From NCBI GenBank assembly GCA_021735645.1, contig JAIPGP010000035.1, positions 1-34,743 on the forward strand: 34,743 nucleotides of DNA, read 5' to 3'. Made by a program: the position numbers and the translations under genes. A model generated the notes under the pieces. That model was given only the letters and a program-made list of their open reading frames with translations, was not told the origin of the DNA and ran no database searches. Every line of letters begins with the position of its first letter. Position 1 is the first letter of the stretch. Source of the DNA: Candidatus Cloacimonadota bacterium (GTDB lineage Bacteria > Cloacimonadota > Cloacimonadia > Cloacimonadales > TCS61). Positions 6,236 through 34,465 of this stretch are shown here, piece by piece.

Positions 6236-7789
6236 ATGCAACGAATAAAGATACTATGGGTAGATGATGAGATAGATTTACTGCAACCTTTTGTGATCTT
6301 CCTGGAAGACCGTGGATTCCAGTTGGAAACCGTGTCAAATGGTTCTGATGCAGTTTCTATGATCACAAATGATTCTTATGATCTGGTTCTATTAGATGAG
6401 ATGATGCCAGGCATGAATGGTTTAGCTACTTTGAAAGAAATCAAGAGAATAAATTCCTCTCTGCCAGTTGTGATGGTTACTAAAAGCGAGGAAGAAGGCT
6501 TAATGGATGGAGCGATAGCCGGGCAGATTGCGGATTATCTGATCAAGCCTATTAATCCCAATCAAATAATCATGGCGATTAAAAAGGTCATTCAGGCAGA
6601 CGATATCAAGCGGGATTTGATCGGGCGGGAATACGCCCAGTTTTCCGCTCAATTGAATCAGAAAATCTTCGCAGAACCCAATTACGAGGAATGGCTGGAA
6701 ATATACAGGGACCTTTGCCGCTGGGATTTACGGCTGGATGGTATTAATGAGATAAATATCTCCCAGACACATTTTCTGGAAAAACTGAATTGCAACTCTG
6801 AATTTTCTGACTATATCACCAGGAATTACCGGGACTGGCTGCGTTCGGAACAGCGTCCCTTATTTTCTATTGATGTAGTACCTGAAATGCTTTTGCCGGA
6901 ATTAGATCAAGGGCATCCGGTTTACCTGATCGTGCTGGACTGCATGAGACTGGACCAGTATTTTGCCTTTGAGCCTATGCTGAATGATCTGTTCGATATT
7001 AACCTCAATCTGTATTACTCCATACTCCCTACAGCAACACCATATTCAAGAAATGCCATTTTCAGCGGATTATTACCTCTTGATATTGCCGAAACCTATC
7101 CGCAATACTGGAATGACACTGATGATATGGATAACAGCAGAAACCGCAATGAGCATCAATTGATCGATGCACAATTAAGTGAACTGGGTCATAAACTGGA
7201 AGAGAGCCGTTACATTAAGATATTCACACCTGATGAAGCAGCTTTTGTCCAGCGAAAAGTCAATAACTGGGCAAATGAGAAACTGGTAGTATTAGTCTAT
7301 AACTTCCTTGATCTAGTAGCTCATCATCGCTCTCAAAACCAGATTCTTAAAGAAGCAATTCCTGATGAAAAAGCCCTGCGTGACTTCACCAAACACTGGT
7401 TTATCCACTCAAATTTCTATGCCACTCTTAAGGAAATATCTGAGCAGGGAGCTACGGTGATCATTACTACTGATCACGGTTCCATCCGCGTTAATCGAGC
7501 ATCTCAGATAGTTGGTGACAAAGAAACCACCACAACTGTCCGCTATAAACAAGGTAAAAATCTTAAGATCAATGGTAAAAATGCTCTTCTGATTAAAAAT
7601 CCCGCTGAGTATGGTTTGCCTGTCCGCAATATTGTAGATAATTATGCCATTACCCGCGATGATTATTATTTTGTGTATCCCAATTCTTTCCATCAATATC
7701 AGAAGCAGTTCAATGGAACTTTCCAGCATGGCGGTATTTCCATGGAAGAAATGATACTTCCTCTGGCTGTGTGTAAACCCAAAAAATGA
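6236..7789 (+). CDS. porX: PorX-type response regulator: receiver plus PglZ domain
   Basis: 517 residues, essentially the length of Porphyromonas PorX. Residues 1-120 are a CheY-like receiver with D10/D11, phospho-acceptor D54 (LVLLDEMMPGMNG), T82 and K104-P105. A helical linker leads to a PglZ/alkaline-phosphatase-superfamily domain from about 225, with LIVLDCMR (D235), TATPYSR (T266/T268), NFLD and AHH (D359, H363), TTDHG (D413, H414) and QHGG (H498). These are the expected zinc-binding and nucleophile positions. In Bacteroidota PorX pairs with the kinase PorY and controls type IX secretion genes; its PglZ domain has been reported to act as a phosphodiesterase. No porY or ECF sigma gene is in this window. 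It overlaps tsaE by 4 bases. Confidence 0.92.
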   Translation: MQRIKILWVDDEIDLLQPFVIFLEDRGFQLETVSNGSDAVSMITNDSYDLVLLDEMMPGMNGLATLKEIKRINSSLPVVMVTKSEEEGLMDGAIAGQIADYLIKPINPNQIIMAIKKVIQADDIKRDLIGREYAQFSAQLNQKIFAEPNYEEWLEIYRDLCRWDLRLDGINEINISQTHFLEKLNCNSEFSDYITRNYRDWLRSEQRPLFSIDVVPEMLLPELDQGHPVYLIVLDCMRLDQYFAFEPMLNDLFDINLNLYYSILPTATPYSRNAIFSGLLPLDIAETYPQYWNDTDDMDNSRNRNEHQLIDAQLSELGHKLEESRYIKIFTPDEAAFVQRKVNNWANEKLVVLVYNFLDLVAHHRSQNQILKEAIPDEKALRDFTKHWFIHSNFYATLKEISEQGATVIITTDHGSIRVNRASQIVGDKETTTTVRYKQGKNLKINGKNALLIKNPAEYGLPVRNIVDNYAITRDDYYFVYPNSFHQYQKQFNGTFQHGGISMEEMILPLAVCKPKK

Positions 7790-9438: not shown

Positions 9439-11049
9439 CTATTTCAATGGTCCACCGATCACAATCGGCACCTGGTCTGTTTTAAGATCACCACTATCAT
9501 TTTCCAGGACTTCCAGGTGACAAATATACAAGCCCCAGGGAAGCAGTTCACCATTCCTGTCTCTGCCATCCCATTCGTAGGAATTATAGCCAGTATTGCT
9601 GGTTATCACTTTATTCTCCGGCGTGAGCATCAGCTTGCCTTCTGAATTATATATCCGCATGATCGCCCGATCACCTCGCTGGGCAAAGAACTCTATCATC
9701 ATTGTATCATTATCAGGATTGGTATCTCGCTGATAAGGATCAAAGGGATGAGGCTCTACCTTTAATATTGCCTTATGCGACTTTACAGGATAAGTATAAG
9801 TTATCTGATCATAATAATATACTTCCATAGAATCATTCATTGCATAAATCCCGATATAAAGCTTGGTCCCTGCTGATTGCCCGGGAATCTCACCATGGAA
9901 TAAATTGCTTTCCACACTATCTGCTATCATCAGCTCACGATATTCATCAGCACTGAAATCCCGGGTATATAAAAGCCAGACCTGCAGATTTGCCATTGAA
10001 GGGTCAATAACTACTGCATCCACTTGCAGGCTGTCACCGGCAACGGGAGAATTCACTATACTGATATCATTCAGTACTATTCCATCTTCAATTATTGTAA
10101 CTGTTACCAGATCTGATTCCACTTCATTTCCATCATCATCTTCTGCGGAAATTGTAAATTCATAGTAGTAATTCCTATCCAGCAATCCATCTAAGGTAAA
10201 TTTATAGATATCACCGGGTATTGGCGTCATCTGACTGGTATGCCAGTCACCTGTAATTTCTGTTATCGCACGCCAGACTATATTTGCTGAGGTAATGATG
10301 CCGTCATAGTCTACAATACTTGCTCGAACCTCTATTTCCTCTTCTATCACCGGAAAAGCTGGCAAGATACTAATGTCTGCGATTATGGGCTCACCCATAG
10401 CAATAAAATCTCCTGAACTGCGGGGATTTAGTCCATATTCACCAAAATTGTAATCTACTGCCCCAATTATAGAATAAAATTCGTCTCCTGTATGCACGGT
10501 TCCATAGCTGTACATTCCATCATCTATCTGACACTCACCACTGCCATCATCCACGAACCACTCTCCATAATTATTTGGTGTAGCTGATACTTCTACTAAA
10601 CTAATTTTCGCAAAGCACCCTTCATAAGCTTCATTAGATGCCAGATCATCAGTGCTGATCTCAATCGGGTCTGGTAGAGAATTACCGGAACTCAATATTG
10701 TCAGATTATTCAGATTAATGAGTTCAGTAAAATTATTATATTCATCAACTTCGGCAGTGAATTCCACCTCATCACCTATTTCGACAATATAATCCCAATT
10801 GAAGCAGAACACTCCGCTCCAGGCTCCTCCCTCGGGGTCACTGATAAAGAAGCGGTTACTGTTGGATGAGGAATAATATCCATTGGCAGTAACTATTCCG
10901 CTTACATTCACGATTTGACCATTTAGGGGTGAATCACCGGACGGATCATCAGTATATTGTATCTCATATACAGTTACGGCTGGTAATAATGCTGGTAAAA
11001 GCACTAATAACAATAAAATAATTAGTCTGGAAGACTTCCAGATTTTCAT
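9439..11049 (-). CDS. Exported multidomain protein with OB-fold-like N-terminus and FlgD-type C-terminus
   Basis: 536 residues with a signal peptide (MKIWKSSRLIILLLLVLLPALLPA). Residues about 35-215 (GQIVNVSGIVTANGYYSSSNSNRFFISDPEG in part, WDYIVEIGDEVEFTAEVDEYNNFTEL) look like the OB-fold domains that accompany secreted nucleases and lamin-tail proteins; they appear twice. Ig-like strands follow. Residues about 430-525 (HPFDPYQRDTNPDN, YEWDGRDRNGELLPWGLYICHLEV) resemble the FlgD Ig-like / gliding-motility C-terminal module, which can also act as a cell-surface sorting unit. No nuclease catalytic motif was seen, so it is likely structural or binding. GGAGGAAAG precedes the ATG. It lies between lspA and the PorV-like barrel, which suggests an outer-surface partner of that barrel. 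Confidence 0.75.
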   Translation of the reverse strand: MKIWKSSRLIILLLLVLLPALLPAVTVYEIQYTDDPSGDSPLNGQIVNVSGIVTANGYYSSSNSNRFFISDPEGGAWSGVFCFNWDYIVEIGDEVEFTAEVDEYNNFTELINLNNLTILSSGNSLPDPIEISTDDLASNEAYEGCFAKISLVEVSATPNNYGEWFVDDGSGECQIDDGMYSYGTVHTGDEFYSIIGAVDYNFGEYGLNPRSSGDFIAMGEPIIADISILPAFPVIEEEIEVRASIVDYDGIITSANIVWRAITEITGDWHTSQMTPIPGDIYKFTLDGLLDRNYYYEFTISAEDDDGNEVESDLVTVTIIEDGIVLNDISIVNSPVAGDSLQVDAVVIDPSMANLQVWLLYTRDFSADEYRELMIADSVESNLFHGEIPGQSAGTKLYIGIYAMNDSMEVYYYDQITYTYPVKSHKAILKVEPHPFDPYQRDTNPDNDTMMIEFFAQRGDRAIMRIYNSEGKLMLTPENKVITSNTGYNSYEWDGRDRNGELLPWGLYICHLEVLENDSGDLKTDQVPIVIGGPLK

Positions 11050-11083: not shown

Positions 11084-11581
11084 TTAATCTCTCACTGCCG
11101 GCCGAGTTGACTTCTTCTCAAAAAAAAGATAATATATCACCAGCATACTTACTCCAATTACTATACTACTGTCTGCCACATTAAATACGGGCCACCTTTC
11201 CATTATAAAATCAGGAAAGTCACAGTTTATAAAATCTGTTACTCTACCCAGCCAGATTCTGTCAATCAAATTGCCAGCCGCTCCTCCCATCACCAGAGAA
11301 AGACTCACTGCCTCTACTTTACTTATGGATTTCACTACCAGTATACCCAGAATAACTACTGCAATTGCCGCTATGATAGAAAACAGTATCCGGTTCAATT
11401 CAACACTGCCAAATGTGACGCTGAAAGCTGCACCGGTATTTTCCACAAAAGTTATCCAGAGATATTTTGGAGTGATCTTCAAGTTCTCACCAGGGTACAT
11501 GGTACTTCGGATATAAAACTTGCTCAATTGGTCAAGAATAAGCACCAGCAAGGTTATCAGGAAATATTTTTGTTTCTTCAT
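11084..11581 (-). CDS. lspA: Lipoprotein signal peptidase (signal peptidase II)
   Basis: 165 residues, four predicted membrane segments. The catalytic aspartates are D116 (GRVTDF) and D137 (FNVADSS); ENTGAAFS and GGAAGNLIDR are the other family blocks. It cleaves prolipoprotein signal peptides at the lipobox in the inner membrane; a likely client in this window is the MORN lipoprotein at 23356. The start overlaps the stop of the DksA-like gene by 4 bases (ATGA), a conserved neighbourhood in several phyla. Confidence 0.97.
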   Translation of the reverse strand: MKKQKYFLITLLVLILDQLSKFYIRSTMYPGENLKITPKYLWITFVENTGAAFSVTFGSVELNRILFSIIAAIAVVILGILVVKSISKVEAVSLSLVMGGAAGNLIDRIWLGRVTDFINCDFPDFIMERWPVFNVADSSIVIGVSMLVIYYLFFEKKSTRPAVRD

Positions 11582-18763: not shown

Positions 18764-18797
18764 ACTATAGGTCCTATAAGTCCTATAAGTTCTATAC
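18764..18797. repeat. Nonamer tandem repeat, GTCCTATAA type
   Basis: Three in-register 9-base units, GTCCTATAA, GTCCTATAA, GTTCTATAC (18771-18797), preceded by a partial unit TACTATAG. It lies 13 bases past the stop of the kinase fusion gene. The rest of the gene-free stretch to 18970 is C-rich then AT-rich; a TTGACG hexamer at 18923 has no good -10 partner. Confidence 0.7.
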
Positions 18798-21277: not shown

Positions 21278-21357
21278 ATTAGTTTTCCGCACTCACATGC
21301 TTAGTGGTTTTTCCTGATTGGCTTTTTATTGGTGAACATAGTGGACGGGGTTATGGT

Positions 21358-21393
21358 GTCCATTTTGTCAATTATGTCCATAGTGTCCATAAA
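21358..21393. repeat. Nonamer tandem repeat, GTCCATNNN type
   Basis: Four in-register 9-base units: GTCCATTTT, GTCAATTAT, GTCCATAGT, GTCCATAAA. A reverse-oriented unit (CATAGTGGAC) lies just before, at 21337-21346. It has the same phase and GTC lead as the arrays at 18771 and 30669, but a different tail. Confidence 0.65.
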
Positions 21394-22264: not shown

Positions 22265-23215
22265 ATGAAGTATATTATAGATTTGATCAAAGGCTTACTG
22301 ATCGGTGTGGCAAATATTATTCCCGGCATCAGCGGTGGCACTTTTGCCTTGATATTGGGGATATATGAGCGTCTGATAAATGCAATTGGCAATATTGATA
22401 TTGAATTTGTCAAAGAGCTGTTTTCCCGCAGGATCTTAACTGCACTTAAAGGCATCGATTTCTGGTTTCTAGTGCGGATTTTCCTGGGAGCTATCATCTC
22501 AATTGTCCTGCTTTCCCGGGTAATAGAATACTTTCTGGAACAGCAGCACGATTCCACTTATGCCTTTTTTATTGGCTTGATCATCCCTTCGATAGCCGTA
22601 CCCTGGAAGATGATGCAGCGACGCAAAACGCCCGAATATATCTGGTTTATGGCGGGAGTAATATTCCTGCTGGCACTATCGATCGGCTTTGGTCATTTAA
22701 ATGATCAGAAGCTGGAAATCAAGGCTGAGGCAGAATTGCTGACAGCGGTTGATATTCACAGTGCCTGGCAGCTCATCTTTGCTGCACTCAGTGGAGCCCT
22801 GGCAATCAGTGCCATGATTCTGCCGGGTATCAGTGGATCATTTGTGATGCTGCTTTTAGGTCAGTATAAAAACATGGTGACTGCTATCAATAATCGTGAC
22901 CTGATCTTTATTGCTGCTCTGGGAATCGGAATGGCATTGGGAATCATCATGTTCACCAGACTATTGAATATGCTGCTTAAGAAATTTCATTCACAGACAA
23001 TCGCCTTTTTAATCGGATTGATGATCGCTAGTTTATATACATTGTGGCCCTTTAAGAAAGTGATTGAGCAGGGTGGAGAATTATATCATACCTCAGTAAA
23101 CATCATGCCGGAGCCGGGCAGCAATCTCTGGATTTCTTTGCTGTCATTTGCAGTAGGTTTTTTTATTGTCTGGATATTTTTGAAAACGGAAAAGAGTATT
23201 AATCGTGAGTCGTGA
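22265..23215 (+). CDS. DUF368 membrane protein (polyprenyl-phosphate translocase, PopT type)
   Basis: 316 residues, eight to nine membrane segments. The family motif appears twice, once per half: NIIPGISGGTFALILGIYERLI near residue 18 and MILPGISGSFVMLLLGQYKNM near residue 185, showing the internal inverted-repeat build of the family. DUF368 proteins have been identified as undecaprenyl-phosphate flippases that recycle the lipid carrier of peptidoglycan and O-antigen precursors. The last codons and stop (R-E-S-TGA) are made by a CGTGAGT heptamer repeat (23201-23226), so the natural C-terminus may have been altered. Co-transcribed with surE. Confidence 0.9.
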   Translation: MKYIIDLIKGLLIGVANIIPGISGGTFALILGIYERLINAIGNIDIEFVKELFSRRILTALKGIDFWFLVRIFLGAIISIVLLSRVIEYFLEQQHDSTYAFFIGLIIPSIAVPWKMMQRRKTPEYIWFMAGVIFLLALSIGFGHLNDQKLEIKAEAELLTAVDIHSAWQLIFAALSGALAISAMILPGISGSFVMLLLGQYKNMVTAINNRDLIFIAALGIGMALGIIMFTRLLNMLLKKFHSQTIAFLIGLMIASLYTLWPFKKVIEQGGELYHTSVNIMPEPGSNLWISLLSFAVGFFIVWIFLKTEKSINRES

Positions 23216-23226
23216 GAAGTGAGTCG
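23201..23226. repeat. Heptamer tandem repeat overlapping the DUF368 stop codon
   Basis: Three in-register 7-base units CGTGAGT, CGTGAGA, AGTGAGT (23204-23224) begin inside the DUF368 gene; the stop TGA at 23213-23215 lies in the second unit. The same units occur at 30410, 30463, 34234 and 34404. Confidence 0.75.
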
Positions 23227-27060: not shown

Positions 27061-27330
27061 GTGGCAGGTAAAGATTTTCTGTCTGCCTGGCAGACTTATC
27101 AAACCAGATGGCTGGAGAATCATTTCAGGAAAATACGCAAAGCTACTGGTATCCTGCATCTATGGACAAGTATCGTGATGAGGGCAGCCGTAGAACTAAG
27201 CTTTGATCTGGAGCATCTGGCACCGGATAACTGGCTGCCGGAAATCGAGACACTCGGTGATCTGGTAGAAGCAGCAGGCTATATCCGCTATGGCGTCAGC
27301 GATAAAGTGTGGGAACAGGAGATATACTGA
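27061..27330 (+). CDS. Small orphan ORF, possibly a gene remnant
   Basis: 89 residues starting at a GTG; amino-acid composition looks protein-like (W, L, R and E rich, with FRKIRKATGILHLWTSIVMRAAVELSF forming probable helices). There is no usable Shine-Dalgarno: GGAAG abuts the start, and the upstream sequence is C-tract and a CGTGAGT repeat unit. The reading frame stays open upstream through this non-coding-looking sequence. It could be a real small cytosolic protein or the 3' part of a broken gene. No family recognised. Confidence 0.4.
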   Translation: MAGKDFLSAWQTYQTRWLENHFRKIRKATGILHLWTSIVMRAAVELSFDLEHLAPDNWLPEIETLGDLVEAAGYIRYGVSDKVWEQEIY

Positions 27331-28458: not shown

Positions 28459-29127
28459 ATGAAAGGAATAATACTTTTATCAGGCGGAATGGACAGCCTG
28501 GTGACGGCTGCTATTGCTGCCGGGGAATGTGAGGAGATATATTTTCTGCATGTGAATTATGGACAGAATACTCAGCAGAAAGAACTGGAATGCTTTAATA
28601 AGCTGGTAATACATTATCAGCCAGCCGGGACTTTGGTTACTTCTATTGACTATCTGCGACAAATAGGAGGTTCCAGCCTTACTGATGATGATATTGCCGT
28701 TACTGATCACCAAAATACAGATCAAATAACCAGCAGCTATGTGCCATTCCGGAATGCTCATCTATTGGCGATAGCAGTTTCCTGGGCGGAAGTGATTCAC
28801 GCAGATCAGATTTATATCGGAGCAGTTGAAGAAGATAGCTCTGGTTATCCTGATTGCCGGGAGAGCTTTTATAATGCCTTTCAGAAGGCAATCAATCTGG
28901 GAACGGCAGATGATACTAAAATAGAAATTATCACTCCTGTGATACATCTCACAAAGCCAGAGATCATTCGCAAAGGAATTGAACTGAAAGCTCCTTTTGA
29001 ATTTTCCTGGAGCTGCTATCGTGAAAATGAGATTGCCTGTGGTACCTGTGATAGTTGCGTATTGAGATTGCAAGCCTTCAAAAAAGCTGGAATAGAAGAC
29101 CCTCTGCCCTATAAAGTAAGGCTGTAA
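28459..29127 (+). CDS. queC: 7-cyano-7-deazaguanine synthase QueC
   Basis: 222 residues. The PP-loop SGGMDS is at 8-13 and the C-terminal zinc site is C186, C194, C197, C200 (CYRENEIACGTCDSC). It converts 7-carboxy-7-deazaguanine plus ammonia and ATP to preQ0, the precursor of queuosine. AGAGAG precedes the ATG. I looked for a preQ1 riboswitch in the leader and saw none. The stop overlaps the trmFO start (TAATG). queH at 4132 supplies the last step of the same pathway. Confidence 0.96.
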   Translation: MKGIILLSGGMDSLVTAAIAAGECEEIYFLHVNYGQNTQQKELECFNKLVIHYQPAGTLVTSIDYLRQIGGSSLTDDDIAVTDHQNTDQITSSYVPFRNAHLLAIAVSWAEVIHADQIYIGAVEEDSSGYPDCRESFYNAFQKAINLGTADDTKIEIITPVIHLTKPEIIRKGIELKAPFEFSWSCYRENEIACGTCDSCVLRLQAFKKAGIEDPLPYKVRL

Positions 29128-30428
29128 TGAAAAAGATAAATATAATTGGAGCCGGAATGGCTGGCTCAGAAGCAGCTCTGCAGTTTGCGGATGCAGGCTG
29201 GCAGGTTAACCTTTATGAAATGCGTCCTGATGTAACTACTCCAGCACATGAAACGGGTAATTTTGCCGAGCTTGTCTGTTCAAATTCTTTGAAATCGTCT
29301 CTTATTTCTACAGCTTCCGGTTTACTGAAAGCTGAGATGGAAATGCTGGGCTGCAAGCTGCTGCCTTTGGCTGCCCAATGTACCGTCCCTGCAGGAAATG
29401 CTCTGGCGATTGACCGTGATAAATTTGCTGAGCTGATAACTGCTACTATCAATGAACATCCACATATCAAAGTGATCAGGCAGGAAGTTACGCAGCTTCC
29501 CGAGAATCTGACGATCATTGCCACAGGACCTTTAACTTCAGATGCTCTTTTGAAAGCCTTATTGCCATTTCTTCCTCAGGAGCACCTTTATTTCTTTGAT
29601 GCCATCGCCCCTATTGTTTCTGCTGAAAGCCTCGATTATGACATTGTTTATCGCAAAACACGCTATGATAAAGGTGAAGCTGATTACTTGAATTGCCCCT
29701 TCACAAAAGCTGAATACTACCAGTTTGTGGAAGCTTTAAATGCAGCAGAAAAACATACAGCACATGAATTTGAAAATGAGTTCTTTGCCCAGATAAACTT
29801 CCAGTTTTATGAGAATTGTACTCCGATCGAAGAACTGGCAAGAAGAGGAGCAGAAACACTCCGATTTGGTGTCATGCGACCGGTTGGGCTGGAAACACTC
29901 GCAGGAGACAGACCTTATGCTGTATTGCAATTGCGGACCGAAAATAAGGATTTTTCGTCTTATAACCTGGTCGGCTGCCAGACCATGCTGCGCTATCCTG
30001 AACAGAAAAAGATATTCAGACTGATACCCGGCATGCAGCAGGCAGAATTTCTGAGGTATGGCTCTATTCATCGTAATACATATATAAATTCGCCCCAAAT
30101 ACTGAGCTCTGATTTAAACTTGCCAACGCTGCCTGAGCTTTATTTTGCAGGACAGATCACGGGATTGGAAGGTTATACAGAATCTATCTTTGGAGGTTTA
30201 TTAAGTTTCCTGATCATAGCAACCGGGCTCAAAGAACTGCCGGAAACTACAATCAGCGGACAATTATGGCGTCATCTGCAAACTGATGTGAAGAATTATC
30301 AGCCTATGAATGCAAATTTTGGGATTCTGCCACCGCTTAAGGAAAAGATCAGAGATAAAAAAATGAAGAAACTCGCACTTAGCGAAAGGGCTTTGCAGGA
30401 TTTGAAAATCGTGAGACGATCTTCGTGA
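29127..30428 (+). CDS. trmFO: Methylenetetrahydrofolate-tRNA (uracil-54-C5)-methyltransferase TrmFO
   Basis: 433 residues, typical. FAD-binding GAGMAGSEAA is at 8-17, followed by YEMRP, ELVCSNSLKS (Cys important for catalysis) and NCTPIEELARRG. The C-terminal GQITGLEGYTESIFGG is also diagnostic. It makes ribothymidine (m5U54) in the T-loop of tRNA, using methylene-THF and FADH2. Coupled by one-base overlap to queC, forming a tRNA-modification operon. The last codons (V-R-R-S-S-stop) come from the heptamer repeat block 30410-30437, so the C-terminus may be recently changed. Confidence 0.96.
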   Translation: MKKINIIGAGMAGSEAALQFADAGWQVNLYEMRPDVTTPAHETGNFAELVCSNSLKSSLISTASGLLKAEMEMLGCKLLPLAAQCTVPAGNALAIDRDKFAELITATINEHPHIKVIRQEVTQLPENLTIIATGPLTSDALLKALLPFLPQEHLYFFDAIAPIVSAESLDYDIVYRKTRYDKGEADYLNCPFTKAEYYQFVEALNAAEKHTAHEFENEFFAQINFQFYENCTPIEELARRGAETLRFGVMRPVGLETLAGDRPYAVLQLRTENKDFSSYNLVGCQTMLRYPEQKKIFRLIPGMQQAEFLRYGSIHRNTYINSPQILSSDLNLPTLPELYFAGQITGLEGYTESIFGGLLSFLIIATGLKELPETTISGQLWRHLQTDVKNYQPMNANFGILPPLKEKIRDKKMKKLALSERALQDLKIVRRSS

Positions 30429-30476
30429 GTCGTGAGAGGAAATGTAAAACCAAAACCAATATCGTGAGTCGAAATG
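30410..30476. repeat. Heptamer-phased repeat overlapping the trmFO stop codon
   Basis: Units CGTGAGA, CGATCTT, CGTGAGT, CGTGAGA run in 7-base register from 30410; the trmFO stop (30426-30428) lies in the third unit. A shared tail (GAAATGTAAAACCAAAACCA) follows, then another CGTGAGT-CGAAATG block at 30463-30476. The block at 34234 has the same order. Confidence 0.75.
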
Positions 30477-30552: not shown

Positions 30553-30579
30553 CAGAGCAGGGATGCTCTGGTTACGCAG
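30553..30579. repeat. REP-like palindrome, single reverse copy
   Basis: CAGAGCAGGGATGCTCTG (7-bp stem, 4-base loop) followed by GTTACGCAG. The same 27 bases recur at 34439-34465, and the palindrome alone at 30807. Confidence 0.8.
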
Positions 30580-30668
30580 CCCCTCCCTGCACACCTTCGC
30601 ACTTTCGAATCTTCGCACCTTCGCATATCAATGGTTGCGACCAGTTGCTGCCCAGGTTTCACTTTTAT

Positions 30669-30720
30669 GTCCACTACGTCCTCTGAGTCCACTATGTCCA
30701 CTACGTCCACTGTCCACTAA
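30669..30720. repeat. Nonamer tandem repeat, GTCCACTAN type
   Basis: Units GTCCACTAC, GTCCTCTGA, GTCCACTAT, GTCCACTAC, a 7-base GTCCACT, then GTCCACTAA. Five full nonamers in near-perfect register. Confidence 0.8.
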
Positions 30721-30885: not shown

Positions 30886-33800
30886 TTATTTCATCAGAAT
30901 CAGCTTCTGAATCTGCTCTGTTCCACTTGCAGTCATTTTCACAAAATAAATACCACTTGCCTGACCGGCTGCATTCCACACTACACTGTGCTGTCCTGCT
31001 TCCTGACTGCTATTTACCAGTTCTGCCACTTTCTGTCCTTTGAGATTATAAACTGCCAGGTTTACATTACCAGTTTCTGAAATCTGATAAGCGATAGTTG
31101 TTTCTGGATTAAAGGGATTAGGATAAATTGTGTTCAGTTTAGTAACCAGTGGTATTTCAGATATACCATTATTAGTAACTTCAAGCTGGATACTGATTAT
31201 ATCTGAGCTGCCATCAATATATACCGCTTCTACACCAAATTCGTGAAATCCGGTTTCACAGCTTATCACAGCTAAAGTATCAGTGGTGTTTTCATAAAAA
31301 ACACTATCTAAATAAATATTATAATTCAATTCAGGGTAATAAGCAGAAGGTACCAGCCAGGATAATTCAATGTTACCATCATATAAGTTCACTGCCTGTA
31401 ATTCTCTCACCTCATCATCATTGATGGTAATTAGAAGACTGTCTCTGCTTACTAATCTATTCTGAAGATCATCCACCGTAAGATAAATCATTTCTGAAAC
31501 AGTATTATCACACTCAGCAACTGAAAATTCAGCAATTTCTGACTCCGCATTAACTATGGTAACATAATCACCAGCCTGCCATAAAAATGATAGTGTTTCA
31601 CTGTCAATATCATATGTAGAACTTGCATCGAGAGTACCTGATTCTCCATCTCTGATTATGATATCTTCTCCTGCTTCCGGAACTGGCGGATCATTCACAG
31701 GACTCACATTTACCAGAAGTGAATCTATGCCTTCCAGACGAGTGCGATTATCTGAAATTGTAAATGTGATCATTTCGCTGCCAAACCAGTTACTATCAGG
31801 TATAATACTTACTTCCAGATCATCAATTCCGATGGTAATATTATCTGAGCCAGCAGAGTAAATCTGCAGATCATCACCATTTAGATCATTAGAATAAATC
31901 GTAAAATCGACTAACAACTCAGTATCTTCCTCTAAATCAAAGCTATCCGGCAGAGTGAGTGATGGCGGGAAATTCTGATATAATACGGTAATGGTCAGCT
32001 CATCAGACTGACTATTCATTTCAGGATCAGTTACCTGCAGACTCAGAACATATTGCGTATCTTCATCCACTACAGGTGCTGTAAATTCTGGAGTAATAGA
32101 ATTTACATCATCCAGAATTATTTCAGCGGGAGTATCCCAGAAATATTCCAGCTCTCCCCCATCGGGGTCCCAGGATTGTGAACCATCTAAAATCACCTGT
32201 TCTCCTGCTGCTATGGTGATATCATCACCTGCTATTGCCTGTGGGGGATGATTTGTAAGCCCTACATCATTTATCACTACTAAGCCCGGTAATGGTGGAG
32301 CAAGCAGCAGTCCATTATAAACAGCGAAGATTCCATCTATCTCTGTTTCACCATAACATCCTGCCTGAAACCATAGTTTAAAAATTGAACCTTCACCAAC
32401 CAGCGGTAAATAATGCATATATGTAATCTCTATCTGGGCAGGATTTGTTTCTTCATTTACTTCACAATTCACAATTCCACCAGAAGCAATAGTTCCTTCC
32501 AGGCTATGCCCGAAATATTGCAGATAATAAGGATCATATTCCAGAAATATCTGATATGTTGAAACTGACCAATGCTCAAAGACTTCACTTGTATTCAGAT
32601 CTATTTCCAGATAATCACCATCGTCTGCAATCTCACTGCTTATTTCAAGAATACTGTCTTCCAGCAAAAAACAGTTTACTGTAATAGTATCCATGCGAAC
32701 TATCCTGGCGGTTTCATCATCAACAGTAAAAACTACATCTTCTGTGCCATGCCAAGAGTTTATTGGTGTAAATTCCACTAAATAATCTACTATTTCAATG
32801 CTCATATTTTCGGATTCAGCAGTTATTGCCAATTCAGTATTATCCACATCATTGATATAGGTCGAAATATCCCATTCCTCTGGCAGATCAGCAGCAAAAG
32901 TGAAATATTCCGGTAGATTAATCTCTGGTGCATCATTAACCGGGTTATAAGTGATCATTATACTATCCATCACAGTTCCAGTCTGGTCAAATACGCTGAT
33001 CACAGCACTCTCGGTTCCATACCAGTCTGCAGCAGGAATAAACCTGATCTGTCCATCAGCTATCAGCATACTAATATTATCCAGACCATTGGCAGAAATT
33101 GTCAGAGTGTCATTTTCCACATCATAGATAACCTCAGATATCAATAATACTATTTCCTCATCCTCATCATATACCAATACTTCAGGAAAGGTTAATTCCG
33201 GCAGATCATTTACTGCTATCACGCTGATCTCCACATTTTCTACTGTTATTTCCCGATATTGCCAATCTTCTGCCGTTAATGTAACTACTTCTTCCCCATT
33301 CCAGTTCAAGGGTGCAGATAATTCCAGCATACTACCAGTCAATTCACAAATAATCTCGGTATTTCCACTAATACTGAAGCTGAGGCTGTCTCCTTCAAAA
33401 TCGCCAGAATAATCCATAAGCTCTATACTCAGATTCTCATCTTCTGCAAAAAAGAATCCCTCCACCGGAAAATCAAATACCGGCGAGTGATTAGGATACA
33501 CTTCCACAGTCAAAGAATCAACTGCAATCGACCGTGAATTATCATCCACCATGATATAGATCATTTCTGAACCAAACCAGGAGCCATCCGCAGAAAACTG
33601 CAAAACCATTTCAGCAATTTCCACCTCTATTTGCTCATTTCCTTCCACTTCAATGATATAATTATCATCCCAGAGATAACTGATATATGCCGAAAGATCA
33701 AATAATAACCCATCATAATACCTGAAACCTGTTTCATCCGGCAAATCTAATCTCACTCCCAGAATCATGCCCCCATTTTCAATATCAAATGTCTGGATAT

Positions 33801-34128
33801 TCTCACCATCAAGCTCATATTCCATCATAAACCATTCTTCTGCCAGATCATCAAACACTTCCACATGAAGAGTATCACCTGGATTCCAGACAGCAAAAGA
33901 ACCACAATTTATATGCAAATACACATTAAAAGCTGGATAATAGCAATCAGTACTACTCAAATCGAGTATTGTGTTTGGGTGTCCTAATCTCCAGGCTTGA
34001 AAACTTAACCCTTCTGGATCAGGTAGATTTCCCAAGGAAGTCTGCAATTCAATCAAAACTGGATGTGGTGGTGATGCAAATATACTTGTTGCTAATATTA
34101 ATAATAATAAAATGTTGAAAATTCTCAT
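30886..34128 (-). CDS. T9SS-sorted surface protein with cadherin-like, cohesin-like and PKD-like modules
   Basis: 1080 residues. A signal peptide (MRIFNILLLLILATSIFAS) is followed by tandem cadherin/tandem-95-like repeats (each with NDxPxxxxPE, DxENDxLxIS and W.G.E..... words, about 215-480). Next is a cohesin-like segment (about 493-600: STYQIFLEYDPYYLQYFGHS, GGIVNCEVNE, SIFKLWFQAG) and a PKD/REJ-like domain (about 626-714: AIAGDDITIAAGEQVILDGS). More tandem repeats, a second PKD-like domain and an FN3-like domain (about 905-985) precede the T9SS C-terminal sorting domain (from about 1000: IYPNPFNPETTIAYQI, YNLKGQKVAELV, SGIYFVKM, QKLILMK). It should be exported by Sec, moved across the outer membrane by T9SS and anchored. 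No enzymatic motif was seen; it is probably adhesive or scaffolding. Confidence 0.9.
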   Translation of the reverse strand: MRIFNILLLLILATSIFASPPHPVLIELQTSLGNLPDPEGLSFQAWRLGHPNTILDLSSTDCYYPAFNVYLHINCGSFAVWNPGDTLHVEVFDDLAEEWFMMEYELDGENIQTFDIENGGMILGVRLDLPDETGFRYYDGLLFDLSAYISYLWDDNYIIEVEGNEQIEVEIAEMVLQFSADGSWFGSEMIYIMVDDNSRSIAVDSLTVEVYPNHSPVFDFPVEGFFFAEDENLSIELMDYSGDFEGDSLSFSISGNTEIICELTGSMLELSAPLNWNGEEVVTLTAEDWQYREITVENVEISVIAVNDLPELTFPEVLVYDEDEEIVLLISEVIYDVENDTLTISANGLDNISMLIADGQIRFIPAADWYGTESAVISVFDQTGTVMDSIMITYNPVNDAPEINLPEYFTFAADLPEEWDISTYINDVDNTELAITAESENMSIEIVDYLVEFTPINSWHGTEDVVFTVDDETARIVRMDTITVNCFLLEDSILEISSEIADDGDYLEIDLNTSEVFEHWSVSTYQIFLEYDPYYLQYFGHSLEGTIASGGIVNCEVNEETNPAQIEITYMHYLPLVGEGSIFKLWFQAGCYGETEIDGIFAVYNGLLLAPPLPGLVVINDVGLTNHPPQAIAGDDITIAAGEQVILDGSQSWDPDGGELEYFWDTPAEIILDDVNSITPEFTAPVVDEDTQYVLSLQVTDPEMNSQSDELTITVLYQNFPPSLTLPDSFDLEEDTELLVDFTIYSNDLNGDDLQIYSAGSDNITIGIDDLEVSIIPDSNWFGSEMITFTISDNRTRLEGIDSLLVNVSPVNDPPVPEAGEDIIIRDGESGTLDASSTYDIDSETLSFLWQAGDYVTIVNAESEIAEFSVAECDNTVSEMIYLTVDDLQNRLVSRDSLLITINDDEVRELQAVNLYDGNIELSWLVPSAYYPELNYNIYLDSVFYENTTDTLAVISCETGFHEFGVEAVYIDGSSDIISIQLEVTNNGISEIPLVTKLNTIYPNPFNPETTIAYQISETGNVNLAVYNLKGQKVAELVNSSQEAGQHSVVWNAAGQASGIYFVKMTASGTEQIQKLILMK

Positions 34129-34233
34129 AATCTATCCTCATGTACTTTTTTTTTATTTTATTTTGAGTCTTCTATCTGTCAATCTTTGTATTATCTATTT
34201 TTGTATATTTTTTAACTGCGAACAAAACTAAAT

Positions 34234-34282
34234 CGTGAGTCGAGGTTCGTGAGTCGTGAGTCGAAATGTAAAACCAAGACCA
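34234..34282. repeat. Heptamer-phased repeat block
   Basis: Register of seven: CGTGAGT, CGAGGTT, CGTGAGT, CGTGAGT, CGAAATG, TAAAACC, AAGACCA. The last three units recur after the CGTGAGT units at 30431-30459 and (first two) at 34425-34438. Confidence 0.75.
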
Positions 34283-34327
34283 ATTCCTATGTGTTCTCTG
34301 CGGTGAAAAAATCTTCACATTACATTT

Positions 34328-34357
34328 TTCCGTGTAGTCCGTGCTGTTGTCCGTGGT
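34328..34357. repeat. Nonamer-phased repeat, GTCCGTGNN type
   Basis: TTCCGTGTA, GTCCGTGCT, a 3-base GTT insert, then GTCCGTGGT. A related TTCGTG...TCCGTG pair with 10-base spacing follows at 34380-34395. Confidence 0.55.
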
Positions 34358-34403
34358 TAATTACTCTTACATTACATTATTCGTGCAAATCCGTGGCTAA
34401 AAT

Positions 34404-34438
34404 CGTGAGTTGAGGTTTGTGAGTCGAAATGTAAAACC
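34404..34438. repeat. Heptamer-phased repeat block abutting a REP-like palindrome
   Basis: CGTGAGT, TGAGGTT, TGTGAGT, CGAAATG, TAAAACC in 7-base register, directly joined to CAGAGCAGGG of the palindrome at 34439. Confidence 0.7.
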
Positions 34439-34465
34439 CAGAGCAGGGATGCTCTGGTTACGCAG
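34439..34465. repeat. REP-like palindrome, single reverse copy
   Basis: CAGAGCAGGGATGCTCTG plus GTTACGCAG, identical over 27 bases to 30553-30579. It is located just past the terminator of the partial T9SS cargo gene, like the copy at 30807. Confidence 0.8.

Follow-up and report, generated by a model that had tools for sequence, protein, structure and literature searches.

Heptamer arrays in the window

The window, i.e., the whole 34,743-nucleotide stretch of DNA analyzed here, is contig C24 of a metagenome-assembled genome (G000; 3.77 Mb, 151 contigs) of an uncultured bacterium from the genus Ca. Stygibacter in the phylum Cloacimonadota, and it carries short arrays of a 7-bp unit, CGTGAGT, at several positions (Table 1). 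Gene ends were taken from a simple ORF rule (ORFs of at least 100 codons), not from annotation, and no known RNA family or tRNA was found within the window. Arrays at 3' gene ends often provide the TGA stop codon; in the window this is the case for ORF 22265-23215 and for the trmFO-like ORF 29127-30428, whose 3' end is the site 3 array and whose stop (30426-30428) lies inside a unit. The minus strand at 30886-34128 encodes a secreted repeat protein of 1080 amino acids with a C-terminus (YPNPFNPETTIAYQ...GIYFVKMTASG) that, judged by eye, resembles a type IX secretion sorting domain; another such gene, again by eye, starts beyond 34520.

Table 1. Heptamer arrays and adjoining elements in the window
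Feature	Units and interpretation	Position	Strand	Basis
Site 1 array	CGTGAGT 34234, CGAGGTT 34241, CGTGAGT 34248, CGTGAGT 34255	34234..34261	+	direct reading
Site 1 end unit	CGAAATG, the usual array 3' end (CGAAA plus variable junction)	34262..34268	+	array right flanks, genome sample
Site 1 linker and start of hairpin-type module	TAAAACC 34269, AAGACCA 34276; no heptamer units	34269..34282	+	differs among loci; stems AGACC/AGAGC
Site 2 array	CGTGAGT 34404, TGAGGTT 34411, TGTGAGT 34418	34404..34424	+	direct reading
Site 2 end	CGAAATG 34425, linker TAAAAC	34425..34437	+	direct reading
Hairpin module 3' of site 2 array	CCAGAGCA-GGGA-TGCTCTGG	34438..34457	+	perfect inverted repeat
Site 3 array	CGTGAGA 30410, CGATCTT 30417, CGTGAGT 30424, CGTGAGA 30431	30410..30437	+	direct reading
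Site 3 end and linker	GGAAATG 30438, TAAAACC 30445	30438..30451	+	direct reading
Site 4 single unit and end	CGTGAGT 30463, CGAAATG 30470, then TAACCAA	30463..30476	+	direct reading
Fifth array	CGTGAGT CGTGAGA AGTGAGT	23204..23224	+	3' end of ORF 22265-23215, TGA stop within array

A period of 7 was called by TRF at 34233-34263 (site 1), and CGAGGTT, CGATCTT and TGTGAGT occur as in-step 7-mers between CGTGAGT units of the window, which contains 6 occurrences of CGTGAGTCG as compared to 0.01 expected. An earlier note on this DNA had described four words, i.e., CGTGAGT, CGAAATG, TAAAACC and AAGACCA, as following one another in strict 7-base steps at four sites. This description holds at site 1, the one place in the window where the four words are directly consecutive (34255-34282), and not at sites 2 to 4, where the later words are altered or missing; TAAAACC is followed by CAGAGCA instead of AAGACCA at site 2 (where TAAAACC starts at 34432), and by AAAACCA (30452) at site 3. 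The fifth array had been overlooked in that note.

The earlier note had also regarded the four words as distinct repeat units forming an ordered phrase. A short phrase of this kind does recur, as the order CGTGAGT-CGARRTT-CGTGAGT-CGTGAGT-CGAAA is found at 34234 in the window and on contigs C102 and C127. TAAAACC and AAGACCA do not belong to it; neither is repeated in tandem, and both are replaced by other junctions at other loci, so that we rejected them as repeat units. Arrays mostly end in CGAAA and the sequence after it is locus-specific (ATATAATGTAAT, ATGCGTAACC, AACTTGACAGG and others); at further loci the array end is followed by CGAAATATAAT, CGAAATGCGTAACC or CGAAAACTTGACAGG. TAAAACC and AAGACCA thus represent the junction of an array to a linker and part of a hairpin module, and their 7-base spacing is therefore uninformative by itself. 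The "ordered phrase" is mostly an array joined to neighboring spacer modules (linker, hairpin).

Period, placement and change between species

The period and the location of the arrays were assessed in a sample of 1.17 Mb of the 3.77 Mb genome that was partly picked for array content. In the sampled spacers, the recurrence of 5-mers peaked at lags of 7, 14, 21, 28 and 35 bases; these peaks were absent in coding DNA (at lag 7, 10.8 per 1000 in spacers as compared to 1.6 in coding DNA, with 2.4 in spacers at lag 6). Units of period 7, of which 97 were distinct, covered 4,193 bases of the sampled spacers, as compared to 718, 1,992 and 342 bases for periods 6, 8 and 10, respectively; periods of 8, 9 and 5 were present in the spacers as well. 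CGTGAGT itself was about six times as dense in spacers as in coding DNA of the sample (4.21 and 0.67 per 10 kb, respectively). Where two CGTGAGT units were separated by 8 to 63 bases, the gap was divisible by 7 in 13 of 15 cases (with 1 in 7 expected; P of approx. 8 × 10-10, a value that overstates independence since some of the loci share a phrase and related copies are counted separately), and variants such as CGTGAAT, CGTGAGA and CGAGGTT were in step with the consensus. In the genome as a whole, the 16-mer CGTGAGTCGTGAGTCG had 28 matches and its reversed control had none. Overall, the reading of the earlier note was supported in that the 7-base register persists where units are not identical and the arrays recur across the genome; the refuting result that it had named, i.e., spacers lacking a period-7 signal in an autocorrelation, was not obtained in the 1.17 Mb. 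A chance origin of the arrays is ruled out by the CGTGAGTCG excess, the 28 matches against an empty control, the period of 7 in spacers and the spacer density.

CGTGAGT read outward from the nearest gene end in 32 of 40 arrays in the Stygibacter samples and at 55 of 74 loci from other phyla. The nearest gene end was the 3' end for 26 of 41 Stygibacter arrays and the 5' end for the other 15; among the 74 loci of other phyla these numbers were 49 and 25, with a median distance of 5 bp between the array and the nearest ORF end. The counts at 3' ends are inflated because one strand of a CGTGAGT array has stop codons in every frame and the other strand has none, so that ORFs tend to end in arrays. 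The outward bias weakens yet survives when the cases with a stop in the array are left out (pooled, 62 outward and 27 not; P = 3 × 10-4), and arrays at 5' ends alone were also mostly outward (11 to 3 in Stygibacter and 18 to 7 in other phyla).

Change of the arrays was followed at two orthologous sites in two other Stygibacter species (G088 and G089) and an outgroup genus (G083); the protein names used for these sites, i.e., DUF368-like and 2-oxoacid oxidoreductase gamma, were given by eye from the sequence. The fifth array of the window, at the end of the DUF368-like gene, reads CGTGAGT-CGTGAGA-AGTGAGT in G000, and its orthologs read GTGAGT-CGTGAGA in G089 and AGTGAGA-AGTGAGA in G088; in G083 the same two genes are separated by a spacer of approx. 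10 bp with no array. Downstream of the oxidoreductase gamma gene, the array begins directly after the T-tract of a terminator in all three Stygibacter species and consists of 2 CGTGAGT units in G000, approx. 12 CGTGAGT/TGTGAGT units in G089 and 4 AGTGAGA/C units in G088, while AGTGAGA-AGTGAGA-CGTGAGA stands at the stop codon in G083. Copy number thus differs by whole units at both sites among three to four species; the earlier note had proposed to check whether length varies between strains. Between species, site and period persist while the number of units and their word change, which is what gain and loss of whole units together with the spread of mutated units would give.

These comparisons also bear on whether the arrays could be functional elements of 3' ends, i.e., terminators, mRNA stabilizers or stop cassettes. 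Their adjacency to gene ends, the terminator T-tract abutting the array at the oxidoreductase gene and the stops in all three frames are consistent with such a role. We nevertheless consider it quite improbable, as few genes have an array and absence is tolerated (at the DUF368-like gene in G083, and at the trmFO end in G088, which has no array at the position corresponding to site 3), as the 15 Stygibacter arrays mentioned above lie nearest to a 5' end, and as neither a hairpin nor a T-tract forms part of any window array. It appears highly improbable that the arrays are phased direct repeats to which a dedicated DNA- or RNA-binding protein attaches; direct heptamers are reportedly operators of SARP regulators in Streptomyces, and RNA-binding proteins have been suggested for TAACTGA repeats (PMC4679880), but orthologous sites differ in the copy number and the word of their arrays, and arrays also occur outside promoters and on either side of genes. 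Overall, nothing in the sequence comparison pointed to a dedicated (regulatory) function.

Several spacers have opposed arrays at their two ends, with a shared core between them, CGAAAACTTGACAGG...CCTGTCAAGTT (L033 at 7484-7627, 10114-10252 and 10832-11008; L073 at 11171-11279; and L014), and four such spacers fold strongly, with z between -6.1 and -7.6. Inverted pairs, 66 to 99 bp apart, were also found in a Thermomicrobiales genome; a Thermomicrobiales spacer with a terminator-like core reached z -15, and at the oxidoreductase site both arms differ in word between G000 and G088. These observations would fit a palindromic (MITE- or REP-like) mobile element that fills the spacer and has arrays as its arms, with single arrays as one-arm remnants. 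We regard this explanation as rather unlikely. Most arrays are unpaired, including all of those in the window, which have no inverted partner and do not fold (z +0.65, -1.1 and +1.3); the G083 site does not fold either, and fixed ends that would define an element were not found. Y1 transposase genes are present in 36 of 40 genomes of the family, most of which lack arrays. A REP/RAYT origin finds no support, as Y1_Tnp occurs in nearly all genomes of the family with or without arrays and does not track them.

Distribution and relation to known heptamer repeats

The 16-mer was found in 5 of 125 Cloacimonadota genomes, i.e., in the three Stygibacter genomes, in G083 and, as one copy, in a genome of another genus (G097), and was absent in the other 120. 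At least 117 stretches, which record names place in at least 15 phyla, matched a 23-mer (approx. 0.007 expected by chance), and most of 20 chosen genomes had many copies of it. Among 150 genomes of a Chloroflexota class, 7 carried the 23-mer (two had been chosen for carrying it) and 7 carried the reversed word, itself a unit of the form NNTGAGT; among 146 genomes of the Halomonas order, these numbers were 3 and 1, respectively. As the control word is about as common in these order and class samples, CGTGAGT is not privileged and independent origin suffices, and horizontal spread of the word across phyla is not supported. The reversed control, as an array of GCTGAGT, had 397 matches (16-mer) in Calothrix sp. 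NIES-4105 and 162 matches (21-mer) in a genome of the Chloroflexota class (G294).

Cyanobacterial STRRs, known from Calothrix and its relatives, are short tandem heptamers dispersed in spacers. The arrays studied here, short spacer arrays of the unit CGTGAGT, are akin to them in kind, as the earlier note had suggested, and differ in word; the STRR unit is of the CCCCA(A/G)T type, and a unit matching STRR1 (ACTGGGG/CCCCAGT) was a minor family here, present in only 2 of the sampled spacers. Calothrix heptanucleotides are also mentioned in PMC4692102, and an excess of heptanucleotide repeats in bacterial genomes, together with a proposal of polymerase slippage, is cited in both PMC4692102 and PMC4679880.

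TAACTGA repeats occur in marine Beggiatoaceae, cyanobacteria and Bacteroidetes, in sets split by related 7-mers, with insertions and deletions of 7-nt steps and stop codons in each frame (MacGregor 2015, PMC4679880). They share with CGTGAGT the 7-bp unit, the short dispersed spacer arrays split by related words, the 7-nt steps between relatives, the three-frame stops, the overlap with the stop of the upstream gene and the scattering across phyla; they differ in the word and in their usual place, immediately before start codons and in forward orientation. CGTGAGT arrays are more often at 3' ends and are outward at both gene ends. GGGAATC and GGGGA(C/T)T repeats of Xanthomonas and Nostoc, for which slippage has been proposed and outward placement reported (Rehm et al. 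2015, PMC4692102), resemble CGTGAGT arrays in the 7-bp unit, the spacer bias, the location within 50 bp of gene ends, the paired inverted arrays, the outward orientation (on the coding strand downstream and the non-coding strand upstream of genes) and the variation in length and sequence at the same sites between species. These words, however, have G runs and form G-quadruplexes in vitro (Rehm et al. 2015, PMC4692102), while CGTGAGT has no G run. REP/BIME and MITE elements are similar in that some spacers are palindromic with array arms, i.e., arms that are inverted at some sites and at none in the window, and different in that the arrays have no fixed ends, form no defined element and are unpaired in the window. 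Each property of the arrays has thus already been published for other heptamers; CGTGAGT adds a further word to a known, still little understood kind of bacterial repeat.

We consider it probable (approx. 0.75) that the arrays are dispersed spacer repeats in which a 7-bp unit (consensus CGTGAGT) stands in degenerate tandem copies, and that they belong to a family of simple sequence repeats like the cyanobacterial, Beggiatoaceae and Xanthomonas heptamers, grow and shrink in 7-bp steps, and owe their placement more to tolerance than to function. The arrays are dispersed, lie between genes, contain variants in register, and differ between species by whole units and in word. Slippage or unequal exchange may lengthen and shorten arrays by 7-bp steps, as the comparison between species suggests, and point-mutated units may spread along an array; together, these processes would keep variants in one register and let the word turn over while site and period stay. 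Placement would likewise reflect tolerance more than function. As 7 is not a multiple of 3 and the unit contains TGA, an outward array ends translation, whatever the frame, after three units at most and might overrun the stop codon of the gene itself at little harm. Read inward, as ACTCACG, the unit is free of stop codons. As a counterpoint, tolerance does not explain the outward rule of GGGAATC arrays in Xanthomonas, which are stop-less by our reading of the unit.

The heptamer arrays of many phyla could alternatively stem from one conserved array-generating process at gene edges, e.g., template switching between inverted arms, that preserves the step of 7 bp, outward polarity and a class of TGA-containing words while the exact word turns over, with CGTGAGT, AGTGAAT and GATGAGT as interchangeable states of one element class; we consider this unlikely. 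The arrays add a third well-characterized word to the bacterial heptamer repeats, and we found no earlier report for this phylum. The orthologous sites allow a direct reading of how arrays are gained, change in length unit by unit and turn over in word. A word with no relation to G-quadruplexes also follows the outward rule, in many phyla, so that the rule probably has a cause other than quadruplex formation.

Neighboring spacer modules

Among the modules that adjoin the arrays are a pentamer-like linker (CTTACATTACATT), a three-beat "GTG phrase" (e.g., TCTGTGTTCTCTGTGCCTCTGTGG) and hairpins with a constant GGGA loop. In GTG phrases the frame is constant and the word varies (TCTGTGTTCTCTGTGCCTCTGTGG, TCCGTGTTAATCCGTGAAATCCGTGG, TTCGCGTAATTTCGCGGCTTTCGCGG); they occur at 34283-34400 in the window and at loci such as L033, L035, L037, L059 and L069. 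They had 36 matches in the genome sample as compared to 6 for the reversed control, and the linker TTACATT followed within 30 nt downstream in 26 of the 36. Similar phrases were seen in Phycisphaerae (L190) and Vreelandella (L162) loci. A literature search by sequence for the neighboring CACAGAG/CACGGAT phrases returned nothing relevant. The hairpin family, with a constant GGGA/TCCC loop and the flanks GTAAT...TACGCA, is represented at 30553, 30807 and 34438-34457 in the window and in L033, L035, L072 and L075, the last with five copies in an 86-bp tandem; its stem words (CAGAGC, CAGACC, AAGACC, GCTTAATC, GATCAATC) are exchangeable, with both arms changing together.

Of the spacer bases in the sample, 39% have a match in one or more other spacers and 16% in at least five; the spacers of G000 are largely mosaics of shared short modules. 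The window also contains tandem families with periods of 8 to 9 (TATGTCCAC, CACCTTCG, CTATAAGTC and GTGTCCATA, at 30666-30719, 30592-30625, 18765-18796 and 21356-21391). A near-identical protein fragment ending in a CGTGAGT array was found in L011 (1512-1811, minus strand) and L106 (3-302), from G000 and G097, and could form part of a mobile gene. The window has a degraded relative of this fragment (APDNWLPEIETLGDL...) at 27061-27330.
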